From NCBI GenBank assembly GCA_019114415.1, contig DXFO01000039.1, forward strand, positions 1-64,000: a stretch of 64,000 nucleotides of DNA. Reading direction: 5' to 3'. The DNA is from Candidatus Gemmiger faecavium (lineage in GTDB: Bacteria > Bacillota > Clostridia > Oscillospirales > Ruminococcaceae). A model generated the notes under the pieces. That model did no database searches. It was not told where the DNA came from and worked only from the letters and a program-made list of their open reading frames with translations. Below are positions 56,721 through 64,000 of this stretch, in pieces. How positions within the stretch are numbered: the first letter of the stretch is position 1; every line of letters starts with the position of its first letter. The position numbers were made by a program, and so were the translations under genes.

Positions 56721-56892
56721 AAAATAAAAATAGGAAGCGGATTCTCTGCCTTGGAAAATGCCCGGACAGAGTGTATTCTGACATAAAAGCACGATAAATC
56801 GAATATATCTGTGGAAGCCTGGGAATGTTCGCCCGAAAACGGACATGCCGCCTCCATTTGTATTCGAATCGAGCCTTGAGGAGAGTGATTTT

Positions 56893-57606
56893 ATGAAATA
56901 TAAAACGCCGCAATATAAACGCATTGAGCGGGATATCAGTGAAAAAATCTCCTCCGGATATTACAGCGTGGGCAACTCCTTGCCTACGGAGCAGGAACTG
57001 GGCAAACAGTATGGCGTTTCCCGCGTTACGGTGCGCAAGGCGCTGGATAACTTGGTAGCCAAGGACCTGCTGATCCGCACGCCGGGTGTGGGCACTTTTG
57101 TCAAGCAGACGCCGACCTATCCCACCAAGAAGGTGGATTTGTGCGGCTTTACCGCCGAGATGGACGCCATGGGCCTGAAAGCCACCACCGAACTGGAAAT
57201 GTTCGAGGTCATCCGGGCCACGGAAAATATTGCCCATCTGCTGGAGATCTCGGAAGGGGACCTGATCTACCATTTCCGGCGCAGACGTTCGGTGAACGGC
57301 CGGGTGCTCATGCTGGAAAACACCTTTATGTCGGTGGACAAATATCCTGATATTTCCATCAAGGTTTTGACCGGTTCCAAGTACCAGTACTTTGAGAATG
57401 TCCTGGGGAAAAAGCCCGCCAGCAACGAGCACCAGGTCTTTCCCATCCTTGCCACGGAGGAAGTGGCGGAGATTTTCGGCATCGACGTCAATACGCCCAT
57501 CATCCGTATTGCCAACACCACCCGCTTTGCGGACGGGCAGATCATGGACTATACCGAGAACACCCTCAACTCGCCCTACTACCAGCTCAATTACCTGAAA
57601 CATTGA
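56893..57606 (+). CDS. GntR/HutC-family regulator with UTRA domain
   Basis: Ligand-responsive repressor of 237 residues. ATG 56893 follows GAGGAGAG. The winged helix (1-75) reads YKRIERDISEKISSGYYSVGNSLPTEQELGKQYGVSRVTVRKAL; the UTRA ligand pocket fills the rest. UTRA regulators of this type usually bind sugar phosphates. It faces the PTS-sulfatase operon across a shared terminator, the likely target. Confidence 0.92.
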   Translation: MKYKTPQYKRIERDISEKISSGYYSVGNSLPTEQELGKQYGVSRVTVRKALDNLVAKDLLIRTPGVGTFVKQTPTYPTKKVDLCGFTAEMDAMGLKATTELEMFEVIRATENIAHLLEISEGDLIYHFRRRRSVNGRVLMLENTFMSVDKYPDISIKVLTGSKYQYFENVLGKKPASNEHQVFPILATEEVAEIFGIDVNTPIIRIANTTRFADGQIMDYTENTLNSPYYQLNYLKH

Positions 57607-57615
57607 CAGAACCTA

Positions 57616-57664
57616 AAAAGCCTGGCCGGCTCTCCGCAAACGGGAGAACCGGCCAGGCTTTTTA
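57616..57664. terminator. Bidirectional terminator between gntR and the PTS operon
   Basis: AAAAAGCCTGGCCGG and complement plus CTCC/GGAG, with A and T runs on both sides. Confidence 0.92.
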
Positions 57665-57677
57665 TAAGGGGGAGAAG

Positions 57678-59204
57678 TTATTCGCAGTAGATGGGGCTGC
57701 TCCAGGCAATGTCACCGTTTTTCTGCCAGACGCGCAGACGGTAATTGCTGCCGGGAACCAGATCCAGCGTCTCATTGATGCTGACGAGATAAGCACTCTC
57801 GGGAGCGGCGCGGCGGACCCGGAACTTGAAGGCACTGTGCCAGATCAGGTCGTCGCGGTAGTGGTGTGCGTCGGGATACCGGTCGTACACCATTTTCTCG
57901 GCTTCCTCGTATTCGGAGTAGACCCGGGTGCCCTGCAGAAGGTCGCGGACAACCAGCGGGTAGCTCTTGCCGTTGACCGTCAGGTCCAGCACGTCGTCCA
58001 GGCTGCCTTCTACCTCGAAGATGAAGCCTTCCTGGCGGGTGGGGCTGCTGCCCATCCACTTGCCGGTCTCGGAGGTCTGGCGGGTGATCAGGTTGAAGTC
58101 GCAGCCCTTGTCGTCCTGATGGTCGATCCGCTGGCCGAAGCTGTTCCAGAGTTTTTCCACCGACAGGAGAGTACCCGGAACACGGAGGCTGCCCTCCCAG
58201 GTCTTGGTCTCGTTGCCGGGGAAGGCCTTGAGGTCGGGACCCCAGCCGAACTCCACCTCAAACTTGAAGCGGAACTTTTCGGGCAGGGGCGCGCGCTCCC
58301 AGCTGCCGGAATGGACGTAGGTCTTTTCGGGGATGCTGTCCCGCAGCAGCTCGATGCGGTCCACGGCGTTGGTGCCGGTGATGGTGATAGCCAGAGGCTG
58401 CGGGCCTGCGGGAACGGTCTCACCCATGACTTTGCCGCCGATGGAGAAGTCCACTCCGATGCGGCTGCGGCTGACGCCGTAGGTGCGGCCGTTGCGCAGG
58501 GCGGCCCAGATGGCCTCTTTGGTGTTGTTCTCTGCCAGAGCGCACATCATGCCGTGGTCGGCCTCGCCGGGAACGGCGTGGTTGTCGCCCGAGGCAATAA
58601 CGCTGACGTGATGGCCCTGGGCCAGGCCGGACTCATAGCTGGTGCCGCTGATACGGGGGCCCATGTGGACGTGGCGCACCATGGGGATGGGACCGTCGTC
58701 GTTTTCGCTGGAACCGTGGCTGGAGTAGATCTCGGCAATGGGGGAGAACTTCTCGTCGTGGGTGCTCCAGTTTTTGCCGCGGCTGTTCGGTTTGTATGCC
58801 AGATGGTGCGGCACGGCGATGGCCTCATGCCCGGCCAGCTGGTCGCGGAGCTCCAGATATTTCCGGGGCTGCAGGATAGCCTCGTCGTTGTTGAGGTAAA
58901 AGACGTTGTGGTCGCCGTCCGAACCGTCGCCCTGCCACTCGTACCCCATGAAGAAGGGCCAGCCTTCCTGTTCGGCCTGTGCAGCCAGGGCACGGACGGT
59001 CTCCCAGTCGGCGCAGTAGTCCTCCTGAGGGACCAGGTCCTCCAGCGCCGCGCCGGAGGGCGTTTTGCGGAGGGCGAAGGGATAATAGGCAATGGGCCAG
59101 AAATCCATCACTGCCTTGGCGTGTTCATACCACTGGGGCAGCTGCTTCATCTGATGATGATGGATGTTGCTGTGCATATCGGCCCAAAACTGTTGATATC
59201 GCAT
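57678..59204 (-). CDS. PHP-like metal-dependent hydrolase, function unknown
   Basis: Soluble protein of 508 residues with no signal peptide. The first 250 residues look like a PHP/DUF3604-type metal site: ADMHSNIHHHQ, GYEWQGDGSDGDHNVFYL, AVPHHLAY, EIYSSHG and IASGDNHAVPG supply His and Asp ligands. The last 250 residues are beta-rich with Trp-rich stretches (SGSWERAPLP) and no known motif. GGAG lies 5 bases before the ATG. As last gene of a PTS-sulfatase operon it may act on the imported sugar, for example removing a phosphate or opening an ester; this is only inferred. Confidence 0.65.
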   Translation of the reverse strand: MRYQQFWADMHSNIHHHQMKQLPQWYEHAKAVMDFWPIAYYPFALRKTPSGAALEDLVPQEDYCADWETVRALAAQAEQEGWPFFMGYEWQGDGSDGDHNVFYLNNDEAILQPRKYLELRDQLAGHEAIAVPHHLAYKPNSRGKNWSTHDEKFSPIAEIYSSHGSSENDDGPIPMVRHVHMGPRISGTSYESGLAQGHHVSVIASGDNHAVPGEADHGMMCALAENNTKEAIWAALRNGRTYGVSRSRIGVDFSIGGKVMGETVPAGPQPLAITITGTNAVDRIELLRDSIPEKTYVHSGSWERAPLPEKFRFKFEVEFGWGPDLKAFPGNETKTWEGSLRVPGTLLSVEKLWNSFGQRIDHQDDKGCDFNLITRQTSETGKWMGSSPTRQEGFIFEVEGSLDDVLDLTVNGKSYPLVVRDLLQGTRVYSEYEEAEKMVYDRYPDAHHYRDDLIWHSAFKFRVRRAAPESAYLVSINETLDLVPGSNYRLRVWQKNGDIAWSSPIYCE

Positions 59205-59279
59205 AGTTGCTCCGTTCCGCCGCCGTCGCCCGGCGGCATCTTTTTGTGGGGGAAAGTTTCAATGCTTCCGCAGACAGGG

Positions 59280-59717
59280 TCAATCCTCATCGACCTCGTC
59301 GTCATCATCGCCGGGCTCCGGCGGGACAAAGAGGAAGGACTGCTCCCGGATGAATTCCACCGCCTCGTTGGCCAGATCCTTGGCCGTGTCGGCATCGGTG
59401 TGGCTCAACGCAGCCGTCATCAGGATGGGAACGTTGGTGCCGCTGATGACTTCGCTGTCGGGGTAGCGCTCCATCTTCAGGCGGATGGAAACATTGAACG
59501 GGGTGCCGCCGGGGATGTCGGTAAAGACGACCACACCGTCGCACTCTTTCGCCAGGCGCTGCCATACGGCGTCGATTTTTTCGGTCAGCTGCTCCACCGA
59601 GTCGGAGGGTTCAAATTCCACAGCTTCGCAGTATTCCTGCTCGCCCACCAGCAGCTTCAGGGCGTCCAGAGCACCGGGGGCGAATTTGCCGTGTCCGGTA
59701 ACGATCATTCCAATCAT
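59280..59717 (-). CDS. PTS mannose-family EIIA component
   Basis: Cytoplasmic phospho-carrier of 145 residues that takes phosphate from HPr. MIGMIVTGHGKFAPGALDAL carries the phospho-His at position 9; FTDIPGGTPFNVS is the family's conserved turn. The C-terminus is an acidic tail (DDDDEVDED). It lies between EIIB and the PHP-like gene in the sugar operon. Confidence 0.95.
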   Translation of the reverse strand: MIGMIVTGHGKFAPGALDALKLLVGEQEYCEAVEFEPSDSVEQLTEKIDAVWQRLAKECDGVVVFTDIPGGTPFNVSIRLKMERYPDSEVISGTNVPILMTAALSHTDADTAKDLANEAVEFIREQSFLFVPPEPGDDDDEVDED

Positions 59718-59759
59718 GTCAGTCTCCTCTTCCGTCCACGCGGGACCGTTTTGTTGAAA

Positions 59760-60233
59760 TTACAGCAGGGCGATCAGGTCGGCAGCGGGATCGTTGGGAA
59801 CCAGCTGGGCAGTGATCTTGGCGCCCTGGTCGGCCAGGTAGCGGAAATCCGCCACGTCCTGCTCGTTGACGTTGACGGTCTTGCGCAGGTTGCGGCACTC
59901 GCCGCGGACGCTCATGTTGCCAACGGTGATGGCGTCAAAGTGGACGCCGGCCTCGGCCATGATCCGCAGGGAAGCGGGAGACTTGGTGACGATGAAGACG
60001 CGGTCGCCCTCGTACTTGCGGGCGATCAGGTTTTCCGCTGCCTTTTTGGGGGAGAGGATGGACAGCTTGACGTTGCCGGGACGGGCCATCTTCAAAGCTG
60101 CTTTCTGGATCTCATCCTTGACCGCGGCGGCGTCCACCACCATGATGCGGGTGGGTTTCAGCTGCTGGGTCCAAACGGTGGCCACCTGGCCGTGGATCAG
60201 CCTTTCATCAATACGAACGTTTACGATTTCCAT
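59760..60233 (-). CDS. PTS mannose-family EIIB component
   Basis: Cytoplasmic phospho-carrier of 157 residues that phosphorylates the incoming sugar. ATG 60233 (MEIVNVRIDERLIHGQVATVW) follows AGGAG; the phospho-His is in RLIHGQV. The sequence resembles the AgaV/ManX-B group. It follows a sulfatase gene by 29 bases, so the PTS genes are interleaved with sulfatases in one transcript. Confidence 0.95.
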   Translation of the reverse strand: MEIVNVRIDERLIHGQVATVWTQQLKPTRIMVVDAAAVKDEIQKAALKMARPGNVKLSILSPKKAAENLIARKYEGDRVFIVTKSPASLRIMAEAGVHFDAITVGNMSVRGECRNLRKTVNVNEQDVADFRYLADQGAKITAQLVPNDPAADLIALL

Positions 60234-60262
60234 ATCTGTCACTCTCCTGTATTGTGTATGTG

Positions 60263-61630
60263 TTAAGATTTTTTGCGTCCAAGACTTACGTAATCGTCGG
60301 GGTTTTTGCTGCTGGCCTGCATGCATTCCTTGCGGTTGACCTTCCACTCGGGGCGGACCTCAATGGGGCCGGCAAGCAGCGGGTCGTTGGTTCGCTCCAT
60401 ATGCTCCTGCAGCTTCCGGCGCAGGGTGTCGGCGATCTCACGGCAGGCGGGATCGTCGATGAGGTTGTTCCGCTCGCCGGTGTCGTAGACCATGTCGTAC
60501 AGGGCCTCGGCGGCTTTGGGGCGTTCCCGCAGTCCCTTGGTCAGATAGTAGTCCTTGGTCAGGGACTCGTCGCAGTTGGAGCAGTTGGTCTTGAGCCAGT
60601 CGGTGTCAAAGTAGCGGATGTACTTGTAGCGGTTGGTGCGGACGCAGCGGGCAGGCTCGTAGCTGGTGTGGAAGGTGACCTCGGAGTAGATCTCGTCCCG
60701 GATGGTGCGGGAGGAATCTTCCAGCATGGGGGCGAAAGAAGTGCCTTCCAGCCAGTCGGGCGTATCGATGCCCAGCAGCTCACAGACGGTGGGATAGACG
60801 TCCACGTGGCTGATCATGCCGTTGACGGCCTTGCCGTTGGAGGCGGCGCCGGGTTTGCGCAGGATCATGGCCACGCCGATGCCGGAATCAAACAGCGAGC
60901 ATTTGCAGTAGGGAGCACTCAGGCCGTGGTCGGTGGTCAGCATGATGACGGTATCGTCGTAGATGCCCTTTTCCTTGAGGGCGTTGATGACCACGCCGAA
61001 GCAGTCGTCTGCCCACTTAACGCTGGTGGCAAACTGTGCCATGTCCAGGCGGACTTCCGGGGTGTTGGGCAGGGGGACCGGGGGCTGCATGAAGTTCTGG
61101 TTCACCGACTCGTCCACCCAGTCGGGGAAACGGCGGTGGGTGGCAAACATGCCGTAGGACAGGAAGAAGGGCTTGCTGCCGTCATACTGACGGATCCAGT
61201 CGGCGGCGGAGCGGGCGTTTTCCATATCCCACTTGACCAGCTCCTCCTGACGGTATCCCTCGTCGGAATGGGTCAGGTTTTCGCAGTAGCCGATGGGATC
61301 GGCGTCCTCCTTGTTCATGTACCAGCCGGCCTCGTGCTGGATGCCGCTGAGCACGGTGTGATAGCCGTGGCGGTTGAGCCACTGGACCAGATGGCGGGAG
61401 TAATCAATGGAGAAGCCCCGCTGTGCCAGGCCCAGCATACCGTTCTGGTGGGGGTAAACGCCGGTGAGCATGGCCGCGCGGCTGGGGCTGCAGGTGGGGC
61501 CTGCGCAGTAGCACTGCTCAAACACCGCGGCATCCCCGGCAAAGTTCTCGATGTTGGGGGTGGGGACGCGGTAGCCGTAGGGGCTCAGCAGACGCCCCGT
61601 GTCATGAGTGTGAATGTACAGAAAATTCAT
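60263..61630 (-). CDS. Cytoplasmic-type sulfatase A (SGSH-like)
   Basis: Type I sulfatase of 455 residues. ATG 61630 (MNFLYIHTHDTGRLLSPYG) overlaps the upstream sulfatase stop as ATGA; there is no signal peptide. The formylglycine motif is CSPSRAAMLTG, so it needs an anaerobic sulfatase-maturing enzyme, not seen here. VYPHQNGMLGLAQRG after it resembles N-sulfoglucosamine sulfohydrolases, and MLTTDHGLSAPYCK supplies metal ligands. A sulfated amino sugar is a reasonable but unproven substrate. Confidence 0.9.
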   Translation of the reverse strand: MNFLYIHTHDTGRLLSPYGYRVPTPNIENFAGDAAVFEQCYCAGPTCSPSRAAMLTGVYPHQNGMLGLAQRGFSIDYSRHLVQWLNRHGYHTVLSGIQHEAGWYMNKEDADPIGYCENLTHSDEGYRQEELVKWDMENARSAADWIRQYDGSKPFFLSYGMFATHRRFPDWVDESVNQNFMQPPVPLPNTPEVRLDMAQFATSVKWADDCFGVVINALKEKGIYDDTVIMLTTDHGLSAPYCKCSLFDSGIGVAMILRKPGAASNGKAVNGMISHVDVYPTVCELLGIDTPDWLEGTSFAPMLEDSSRTIRDEIYSEVTFHTSYEPARCVRTNRYKYIRYFDTDWLKTNCSNCDESLTKDYYLTKGLRERPKAAEALYDMVYDTGERNNLIDDPACREIADTLRRKLQEHMERTNDPLLAGPIEVRPEWKVNRKECMQASSKNPDDYVSLGRKKS

Positions 61631-63051
61631 AGGTTGTTTTCTGCTCCTTCCTGTGTGTGGGGGCGGGCGTTGTCCAAAAGTTCCTGCCCGCGGTAGGGGT
61701 CCGGCCGGGTCACACATTCCCGGCTGAGGGGAAATCTGGCGGTGTCCCGGGGCTGCATCTGCTTGCCCCAGGCTTTCAGCAGCGGATAGCCTTTCATGCG
61801 CAGCCGCTGCCGCTCCAGGATGGCTGCCTCCTCCTCCGGAGAGGGCAGGCAGGCCAGCAGCTCGTCACACCCTTCGGTGACGGGCGTGCCGATCTCCTGC
61901 TCGTCGGAGGCCAGATCGCACACCCGGTTGCCGTCGGGGTAATGGGTCAGTTTTTTGCCGTCCAGGATCACGGACTTCAAGAAGGCGGAGGCGTCGTCGG
62001 TAACGGTCTCGATCTCCACGGGGGAGGACTGACCGGAGAACAGGTTGACGCCCCGGCTCTGGGGCAGGTCGGCGCCCGCCGCATCCAGAATGGTACGGTT
62101 GAGGTCCAGCAGGCTGACTTCCCGGGAGATGACCTGACTTTGGCGGCTGCCGTCCTCCCAGATCATGGGAATGCGGACCGAATCCTCATACAGCGTTTTC
62201 TTGCCGTAGAGTCCGCGCTTGCCCAGCTGCTCGCCGTGGTCGGAGGTGTAGATAAAGATGCCGTCGGTGCTGCTGCGGCGGAATTCCCGGTGCAGCTCAC
62301 CGATGCGGCGGTCCAGCTGACGGACCATGCCCCGGTAGGCGGCCCGGATGGTCCGCAGCTGCCGCGGCTCCACCGGCTGTACCAGGGAGTCATAGCAGGG
62401 ATGGCAGGGCCAGGAGGCGTCGTCCAGGGATTCCTCCGGTTCGATGCTGTCCCGGAAATCCTCCTCCGGACAGACAAAGGGGAAGTGGGGCGCGTACAGG
62501 CCCACCACCAGGAACAGCGGCTTGCTGCGGGGCTGCCGCAACAGCTCCACCGCGCTTTGCACGACGGCGTCGTCGTATTCCTGGGTGGGGGAGATGCCGT
62601 ACCCGGCCACCTTGCGGCAGCCGGACGCCTGCAGGCTGCCCGCGAAGTCTCCCAGATCGGTGCGGGCAACGCCCCAGTACTGGGTGGTGATGTCGCCGGT
62701 CAGGCGGCGGGCAAAACCGTGGTTCTGGTCGTGGCCCTTGAAGTGCATTCGCCCGGCCAGCACCGTGTCGTAGCCGGCGGCGGTCATGGCGTGGGCGATG
62801 GTGGGCATATCCTCGGGCAGGAGAGCGTCATTGTCAAAAATGCCGATCTCATGGGGGAGCCTGCCGGTGAGGAAACTGCTGCGGGAGGGGACGCACAGCG
62901 GTGCGTTGCAGTATGCAGCGGAAAAGACGGTGCTGCTCTGGGCCAGCTGATCCAGGCAGGGCGTATCGGTCATTCCGCCGCCCGCAAGCCCGGTATAACG
63001 GCCGTTGTGCTGGTCGCTCAGGACCAGTACGATGTCTTTGAGTCGGTTCAA
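61627..63051 (-). CDS. Cytoplasmic-type sulfatase B
   Basis: Second type I sulfatase, 474 residues from TTG 63051 (MNRLKDIVLVLSDQHNGRYTG), which follows GGAGGTG; the track's longer start has no ribosome site. The formylglycine motif is CVPSRSSFLTGR; metal and active-site blocks include LVLSDQH, LAGRMHFKGHDQNHG and IYTSDHGEQLGKRGLYGKKTLYE. No signal peptide. Different enough from sulfatase A to act on another position or another sugar. Confidence 0.92.
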   Translation of the reverse strand: MNRLKDIVLVLSDQHNGRYTGLAGGGMTDTPCLDQLAQSSTVFSAAYCNAPLCVPSRSSFLTGRLPHEIGIFDNDALLPEDMPTIAHAMTAAGYDTVLAGRMHFKGHDQNHGFARRLTGDITTQYWGVARTDLGDFAGSLQASGCRKVAGYGISPTQEYDDAVVQSAVELLRQPRSKPLFLVVGLYAPHFPFVCPEEDFRDSIEPEESLDDASWPCHPCYDSLVQPVEPRQLRTIRAAYRGMVRQLDRRIGELHREFRRSSTDGIFIYTSDHGEQLGKRGLYGKKTLYEDSVRIPMIWEDGSRQSQVISREVSLLDLNRTILDAAGADLPQSRGVNLFSGQSSPVEIETVTDDASAFLKSVILDGKKLTHYPDGNRVCDLASDEQEIGTPVTEGCDELLACLPSPEEEAAILERQRLRMKGYPLLKAWGKQMQPRDTARFPLSRECVTRPDPYRGQELLDNARPHTQEGAENNL

Positions 63052-63078
63052 AACACACCTCCGTGCCGGGATTTCATC

Positions 63079-63140
63079 GGGAAAGAAAACCGGACCGTCT
63101 GTCTCGGTGGCCAGCGGCACGCTTTGGAACAGACGGTCCG
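63079..63140 (-). terminator. Terminator-like hairpin between EIID and sulfatase B
   Basis: Perfect 12-bp stem CGGACCGTCTGT/ACAGACGGTCCG with a 26-base loop; on the minus strand GTTTTCTTT follows. It could lower expression of the sulfatase part of the operon. Confidence 0.72.
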
Positions 63141-63175
63141 GGCTCTTGCATGATTTACAAGGTTCCGGTTAGGGA

Positions 63176-64000
63176 TTAGCCCATGATGCCGAGCAGCACG
63201 CAGATGAAGACCACAACGATGCAGACCAGCAACGCCTTGATGGTGCTCCAGTGATGCTTGGTGTACAGGCGCCAGATGCCGAGGCAGAGGCACAGGGGCA
63301 GGATGCCAGGCATGATGGTGTCAAGGATGGAGGACAGGCTGATCGTCAGATCGCCGGAGACGTACTCCCAGACGATGGGCACCTTGACGGTGTTGGCAGC
63401 AACGCCGCCGACGGTGATCAGACCGACGATGCTCAGCGCGACGGTGGCAACTTCCATGATCTTGCCGGACAGGATCTTGACGGCGTCAAGGCCGAGCTTG
63501 TAGCCGCGCTCGAACAGGAAAACTTTCAGGAAAGCGCAGACCAGGCCGTAGAAGACGAACAGGAAAACGGGACCCAGCAGGGAGCCGGACTCTGCGGACA
63601 GGCCGATGGCGATGGAGGCGATGATCGTCTGGTAGACGCTGCCGATCATGGAGTCGCCCACACCGGCGAAGGGACCCATCAGGGCATTCTTGGTGCCGAT
63701 GATCATCTCTTCGGAGATGGGCTTGCCGTTGGCACGGCCTTCCTCCAGGCCGAGGGTGATGCCGGGGATCAAAGCGCCGATGGTAGGCTCAGTATTGTAG
63801 TACTGCATGTGGCGCTTCAGAGCCTTGGTGTACTCTTCCTTGTCGGGGTACAGCTTTTTCAGGGGCTTCTGCAGGCAGTGGCAGAAAGCCAGGCCCATCA
63901 TACGTTCGTAGTTCTGTGCGCAGTGGTGGAACATCATGTAGGTGATGGCGGACCGGCGCACGTCCTTTTTGGTCAACAGCTTGGTTTCGTTCGTCGTAGT
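63176..64000 (-). CDS. PTS mannose-family EIID component, 5' end cut off
   Basis: Membrane subunit that with EIIC carries the sugar across. At least 274 residues; the frame is open to the window edge (TTTNETKLLTKKDVRRS), so the TTG at 63976 in the track is probably internal and the start lies just outside. MMGLAFCHCLQ, NTEPTIGALIPGITLGLEE and GPFAGVGDSMIG are EIID hallmarks. EIIC should lie just beyond base 64000 on the same strand. Confidence 0.93.
   Translation of the reverse strand, partial: TTTNETKLLTKKDVRRSAITYMMFHHCAQNYERMMGLAFCHCLQKPLKKLYPDKEEYTKALKRHMQYYNTEPTIGALIPGITLGLEEGRANGKPISEEMIIGTKNALMGPFAGVGDSMIGSVYQTIIASIAIGLSAESGSLLGPVFLFVFYGLVCAFLKVFLFERGYKLGLDAVKILSGKIMEVATVALSIVGLITVGGVAANTVKVPIVWEYVSGDLTISLSSILDTIMPGILPLCLCLGIWRLYTKHHWSTIKALLVCIVVVFICVLLGIMG

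Follow-up and report, generated by a model that had tools for sequence, protein, structure and literature searches.

A mannose-family phosphotransferase operon with two leaderless sulfatases and a PHP-like hydrolase in Candidatus Gemmiger faecavium: a candidate route for intracellular desulfation of a sulfated hexosamine

The operon described here lies at the end of a 64,000-nucleotide stretch of DNA (the window) from Candidatus Gemmiger faecavium. The genome of this Gemmiger species comprises 2.55 Mb in 75 contigs, and the window lies on contig C31. On the minus strand, in the order EIIC-EIID-SulfA-SulfB-EIIB-EIIA-PHP, the operon encodes a mannose-family phosphotransferase system (PTS), two S1 sulfatases and a PHP-like hydrolase (Table 1). 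An earlier reading made from the sequence only, without database searches, had described these genes as fused in one operon and had placed EIIC beyond the window. All the operon genes it named were found on that strand, with the sulfatases, checked by sequence, between EIID and EIIB, and EIIC was located just past the window end, the operon extending about 840 bases further. It is one operon but not a gene fusion, which was ruled out, as the genes are separate although overlapping: the end of EIIC overlaps the start region of EIID (64008 versus 64033) and SulfB begins with an ATG that shares bases with the SulfA stop codon. The remaining intergenic gaps are about 30-125 bases, and SulfA starts with TTG after GGAGGT.

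Table 1 Features of the operon and its flanks
Feature	Position	Strand	Remarks
EIIC	64008-64841	-	Pfam EII-Sor 193 bits; nearest NCBIfam AgaW, below cut-off; outside the window
EIID, mannose-family PTS	63176-64033 (window end 64000)	-	Pfam EIID-AGA 268 bits
SulfA, leaderless S1 sulfatase	61627-63051	-	CVPSR site; Pfam Sulfatase 153 bits
SulfB, leaderless S1 sulfatase, SGSH-like	60263-61630	-	CSPSR site; Pfam Sulfatase 128 bits, SGSH_C 68 bits
EIIB, sorbose/mannose family	59760-60233	-	Pfam PTSIIB_sorb 156 bits; RLIHGQ phosphorylation-site motif
EIIA, mannose family	59280-59717	-	Pfam EIIA-man 79 bits; VTGHGK phosphorylation-site motif; nearest NCBIfam AgaF, below cut-off
PHP-like metal-dependent hydrolase, C-terminal beta-sandwich	57678-59204	-	Last gene of the operon; DUF3604 20.7 bits
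Bidirectional terminator-like hairpin, PHP/GntR gap	57607-57677		AAAAAGCCTGGCCGG...CCGGCCAGGCTTTTT, read directly
GntR/UTRA regulator	56890-57606	+	Pfam GntR and UTRA
RpiR-family regulator	65464-66321	+	Second regulator; divergent from EIIC

The EIIA, EIIB, EIIC and EIID domains are encoded together and all score far above their Pfam cut-offs, which assigns the transporter to the mannose family (TC 4.A.6). The phosphorylatable histidines of this family are kept in both EIIA and EIIB. The nearest NCBIfam models for EIIA and EIIC are subunits of the N-acetylgalactosamine (GalNAc) type, although the equivalog cut-offs of the GalNAc/galactosamine (Aga, Gam) systems were not reached (AgaF 110 against 130 bits, AgaW 126 against 300, AgaE 117 against 500).

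Both sulfatases have an intact C-x-P-S-R site, and the S1 motif C/S-x-P-x-R occurs in every aligned orthologue. As the sequence-only reading had stated, neither carries a signal peptide: each opens with the catalytic domain and reaches the active-site cysteine after about 47-51 residues, a distance shared with leaderless orthologues. A hydropathy check, which is not a trained signal-peptide predictor, found no hydrophobic N-terminal segment among 24 SulfB and 14 SulfA sequences. The anaerobic sulfatase-maturating enzyme (anSME) that was expected elsewhere in the genome is present on contig C73 (TIGR03942, 375 bits, cut-off 349), and a maturase for Cys-type S1 sites is thus encoded in the genome, outside the operon. 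This and the other genome-wide statements were obtained by searching for protein families in an assembly that is 92 % complete and contains 10 S1 sulfatases. The nearest solved structure to SulfA is 6fny. SulfA is related to choline sulfatases but does not qualify as one by the cut-off (TIGR03417, 216 bits against 433). SulfB contains an SGSH_C domain (cut-off 29 bits), and its predicted fold is nearest to human sulfamidase, SGSH (4mhx and 4miv, E 5e-33, template modelling (TM) score about 0.8), with S1_8 lambda-carrageenan sulfatases ranking behind. By sequence profile, its top solved relative is an S1_8A lambda-carrageenan sulfatase, and L-galactose-6-sulfatase is also near.

The PHP-like protein is the part of the operon most likely to yield something new. 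Its match to DUF3604 (PF12228) is short and only just above the gathering threshold of 20.4 bits, and the cut-off for CehA/McbA (NF038032) was not reached (49 bits against 80). Comparison with the PDB by sequence, both singly and as a profile, gave nothing meaningful, while the AlphaFold model (pLDDT 93) has the PHP structures 3e38 and 2anu as its nearest folds. Eight residues, D9, H11, E89, H99, H133, E158, D207 and H209, are invariant in 27 relatives and fit a PHP-type metal site; matched by eye, without superposition, they form a candidate active site. Nothing relevant was found in the literature on DUF3604 or CehA/McbA together with sulfatases. The possibility that the protein is its hosts' only deacetylase for N-acetylglucosamine (GlcNAc) 6-phosphate was unsupported, since NagA scored above its cut-off in 15 of 15 genomes searched and was missing only from a Cetobacterium plasmid record. 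In Holdemania filiformis DSM 12042 (L060 10001-11759) the PHP frame is in two matching pieces, possibly a frameshift or an assembly error.

When 84,980 species genomes were scanned with PHP as the query, 39 loci were obtained; these are not phylogenetically independent. Within about 9.5 kb of PHP, 26 of the 39 have a sulfatase and 20 have both a mannose-family PTS gene and a sulfatase. The complete set of EIIABCD, SulfA, SulfB and PHP, for which a neighbourhood search had been proposed, occurs in seven (L032 and L036-L041). A random neighbourhood of equal size in this genome would be expected to hold about 0.07 sulfatases, and a chance neighbourhood was rejected because the gene set recurs. 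The loci span Gemmiger, other Clostridia, Lachnospiraceae, Erysipelotrichaceae, Halolactibacillus and Maledivibacter, and reach haloarchaea at lower identity (PHP 33 %, SulfB 40 %). Few genomes have a close PHP relative, with 3 positives among 393 sampled from the class.

The transporter beside these enzymes varies. TctABC takes the place of the PTS next to PHP at seven loci (L042, L043, L046, L047, L049, L058 and L066) and genes for an NMT1-type ATP-binding cassette (ABC) transporter at three (L029, L030 and L061), and in Clostridium chh4-2 the SulfA-SulfB pair adjoins a DcuC-type carrier and an M20 hydrolase. Because other carriers replace the PTS in this way, PHP and the sulfatases are independent of it. 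As PHP, with or without sulfatases, also adjoins transporters that do not phosphorylate, a need for a sugar phosphate is argued against, and the suggestion of the sequence-only reading that the hydrolase acts on one is weakened. The nearest folds of PHP carry the annotation of predicted metal-dependent phosphoesterases (PHP family), and it could accordingly act as a phosphatase or phosphoesterase, removing the phosphate added by the PTS or shifting it to another position. However, TctABC and the NMT1-type ABC add no phosphate to be removed, and dephosphorylating the PTS product would presumably be wasteful; we consider this role quite improbable. At one locus (L035 10001-16555), PHP is followed by TctCBA and then by a protein of 554 residues with matches to both EIIC and EIID, which may be a natural fusion.

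The genes around PHP and SulfB in relatives bear on the nature of the substrate. A single run in Halolactibacillus contains RpiR, GH4, PHP, PTS IIBC, NagB (288 bits, cut-off 237), SulfB, a short protein resembling glucose-type EIIA by eye, a TauE/SafE-type exporter, an FGE-like protein and anSME (409 bits, cut-off 349). Among the Erysipelotrichaceae loci, L055 has an anSME-like gene and TauE, and L056 an anSME-like gene. NanE lies immediately upstream of PHP-SulfB in L052, L054 and L057, and in Cetobacterium nagE (above cut-off) is followed by PHP, without a sulfatase. These neighbours suggest that the substrate is an amino sugar and that its sulfate is released inside the cell. The alternative of a neutral sugar as the sulfated substrate, for instance a sulfated galactose derived from mucin or from algal glycans, with SulfB acting as an S1_8-type O-sulfatase, would suit the sequence-profile relatives of SulfB and the saline habitats of some carriers (Halolactibacillus, Maledivibacter, haloarchaea). 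It is unlikely in view of the recurrence of NagB, NanE and nagE with PHP and SulfB, the closeness of EIIA and EIIC to GalNAc subunits and the sulfamidase-like predicted fold of SulfB.

The studied locus itself lacks a TauE/SafE exporter and a maturase; both are present at other loci of the genome and in related loci (L055, L062 and L063). The genome also has NagA and a NagB-family gene. A second PTS locus, on contig C71 (26609-37000, L014), encodes a GH1-like protein and a TauE/SafE exporter in addition to two leaderless sulfatases. On contig C73 (12788-21650, L012), LacI, a sugar ABC transporter, a leaderless sulfatase, a class II aldolase, TauE/SafE and a SIS-domain protein form one run, which probably serves to process a sulfated amino sugar supplied by the ABC transporter. 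On contig C16 (3390-9373, L013) a leaderless sulfatase directly follows what appear by eye to be NMT1/Ssu-type ABC genes. With these further leaderless-sulfatase loci, intracellular desulfation looks habitual in this genome.

The GntR/UTRA gene that had been described as facing the operon is present and tail-to-tail (convergent) with PHP, from which the hairpin separates it, whereas in most PTS-bearing relatives GntR is divergent at the operon head. It is likely the controller of the operon. The top promoter-like match on the minus strand (64912-64884) lies directly upstream of EIIC. A AATACAAAT element precedes both EIIC and GntR and is common to 15 of 21 upstream regions, whereas no shuffle gave more than 7; since many of these regions come from close relatives, its reading as an operator is suggestive at most. 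Composition gave no signal of recent foreign DNA, the operon genes having a guanine plus cytosine content of 59-65 % compared with 60 % for the window.

We consider it probable that the operon is a catabolic set for a small sulfated hexosamine, which would be imported by the PTS and then desulfated in the cytoplasm. In the proposed pathway, the mannose-family PTS would import the sugar and phosphorylate its 6-hydroxyl group, after which SulfB (SGSH/S1_8-like) and SulfA, matured by the anSME encoded elsewhere, would take off the sulfates and a TauE/SafE-type exporter would dispose of them. PHP may carry out a further metal-dependent hydrolysis on the same molecule, most plausibly of an N-acyl or similar group and not of a phosphate, and the product would feed amino-sugar catabolism through NagA and the NagB-family enzyme. 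Intracellular desulfation, which the sequence-only reading had placed after phosphorylating import, is well supported as a prediction by the gene order, the leaderless sulfatases, the synteny and the maturase and TauE/SafE genes co-located in relatives, and we infer the succession of import, phosphorylation and desulfation from the same genes.

The sugar can only be guessed at, as can the reaction of PHP. According to a study of glycosaminoglycan (GAG) utilization, 6-sulfated GAG sugars are poor PTS substrates since C6 is phosphorylated (PMC5430744), and for this reason a 6-sulfated monosaccharide is unlikely here. Sugars with a free 6-hydroxyl group would fit, for example N-sulfo-, 3-O-sulfo- or N-sulfo-3-O-sulfo-glucosamine, GlcNAc 3-sulfate or GalNAc 4-sulfate. 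The sequence-only reading had allowed for a mono- or a disaccharide. The genome search detected neither GH88 nor a heparinase II/III-like gene, and a scavenged monosaccharide consequently fits better than a lyase-derived disaccharide or a GAG degrader. In principle, the PTS could import a sulfated GAG-type disaccharide and phosphorylate its amino sugar, and after desulfation a glycosidase encoded at another locus could split it: streptococcal GAG loci use a PTS with EIIA-EIID for the uptake of unsaturated disaccharides of hyaluronan (PMC5430744, PMC9067506), a GH4 gene is present at the Halolactibacillus locus, and the C71 locus combines PTS genes and two sulfatases with a GH1-like protein. 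Neither the studied operon nor the versions in gut relatives contain a glycosidase, however, and together with the missing GH88 and heparinase II/III-like genes this makes a disaccharide an improbable substrate.

Several observations weigh against import and desulfation of a sulfated hexosamine as the function of the operon. No sulfatase adjoins PHP at 13 of the 39 loci (L029-L031, L033, L035, L046, L047, L050, L059, L061 and L065-L067), some of which are cut by contig ends. The nearest named relative found with the locus, Gemmiger gallinarum (PHP 84 % and GntR 83 % identical), retains PHP, GntR and the same AraC-ManA-ManC flank at L050 10001-12390 and has no PTS genes or sulfatases there; SulfB was not found in its genome, and its state may reflect partial loss or another use of PHP. 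The substrate may also vary among loci, because the same enzymes accompany non-PTS transporters. In addition, the TauE genes of this genome sit at other sulfatase loci, and SulfB is just 22-24 % identical to any solved sulfatase.

Desulfation of mucins and GAGs is generally held to take place largely outside the cytoplasm and to be mainly the work of Bacteroidetes. If the proposed pathway is correct, gut Firmicutes would scavenge sulfated monosaccharides, keep the desulfated sugar private and release sulfate from inside the cell. The exchange of transporters predicts that PTS loci are restricted to sugars with a free 6-hydroxyl group and that TctABC and ABC loci are not so restricted. PHP offers a concrete enzyme with a narrow set of candidate substrates. 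A more tentative idea, which we regard as rather unlikely, is that PHP founds a group of hydrolases that act specifically on sulfated amino sugars, whether by N-deacylation or even as sulfo-group hydrolases outside the S1 family, and that with SulfB it forms a mobile desulfation module moved among PTS, TctABC, ABC and archaeal settings.

PTS-linked intracellular desulfation is less novel than the sequence-only reading had stated. For the SPH1922-1930 island of Streptococcus pneumoniae, it was proposed in 2012 that sulfated sugars are taken up and that their sulfur group is afterwards removed and exported (PMC3302838, PMC3283741). The island encodes a Lac-family PTS, a NanE-like/ComA-like protein, a sulfatase, a sulfatase-modifying enzyme, TauE and a ROK regulator (PMC3283741, PMC3302838). 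The island and the Gemmiger operon both combine a PTS and sulfatase in one locus, the sulfatases being leaderless in Gemmiger, and the NanE-like protein has its counterpart in the related loci L052, L054 and L057. The Gemmiger operon differs in having a mannose-family PTS, two sulfatases and GntR in place of a Lac-family PTS, one sulfatase and ROK, in lacking the maturation enzyme and TauE, and in encoding PHP, whereas no PHP-like protein is named for the island. The C71 locus is closer to the island than the studied operon is.

The streptococcal GAG clusters share the PTS with EIIA-EIID (PMC5430744), and in Streptobacillus an ABC transporter imports GAG disaccharides and the sulfatase is predicted to be cytoplasmic (PMC5430744). 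Both kinds of cluster work on unsaturated disaccharides with lyases and GH88, in contrast to the Gemmiger genome, where no such GH88 or heparinase II/III-like genes were found. SulfB resembles human SGSH and the S1_8 sulfatases in overall fold, in the SGSH_C domain and in a formylglycine-type site, and differs from them in its low identity and in having GIQHE at the usual GK-x-H motif. The Aga/Gam and Man PTS of Escherichia coli have EIIA-EIID of family 4.A.6 in common with the operon, although the Gemmiger subunits score below every equivalog cut-off, and the E. coli loci are not known to contain sulfatases or PHP. With the DUF3604 and CehA/McbA metallohydrolases, the PHP-like protein shares a PHP domain with metal-site-like residues, followed in Gemmiger by a beta-sandwich; it barely passes the cut-off of the former and falls short of that of the latter. 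Compared with these systems, the new elements are the mannose-family version of the pathway, the PHP-SulfB pairing that reaches haloarchaea and the reuse of the enzymes with non-phosphorylating transporters.

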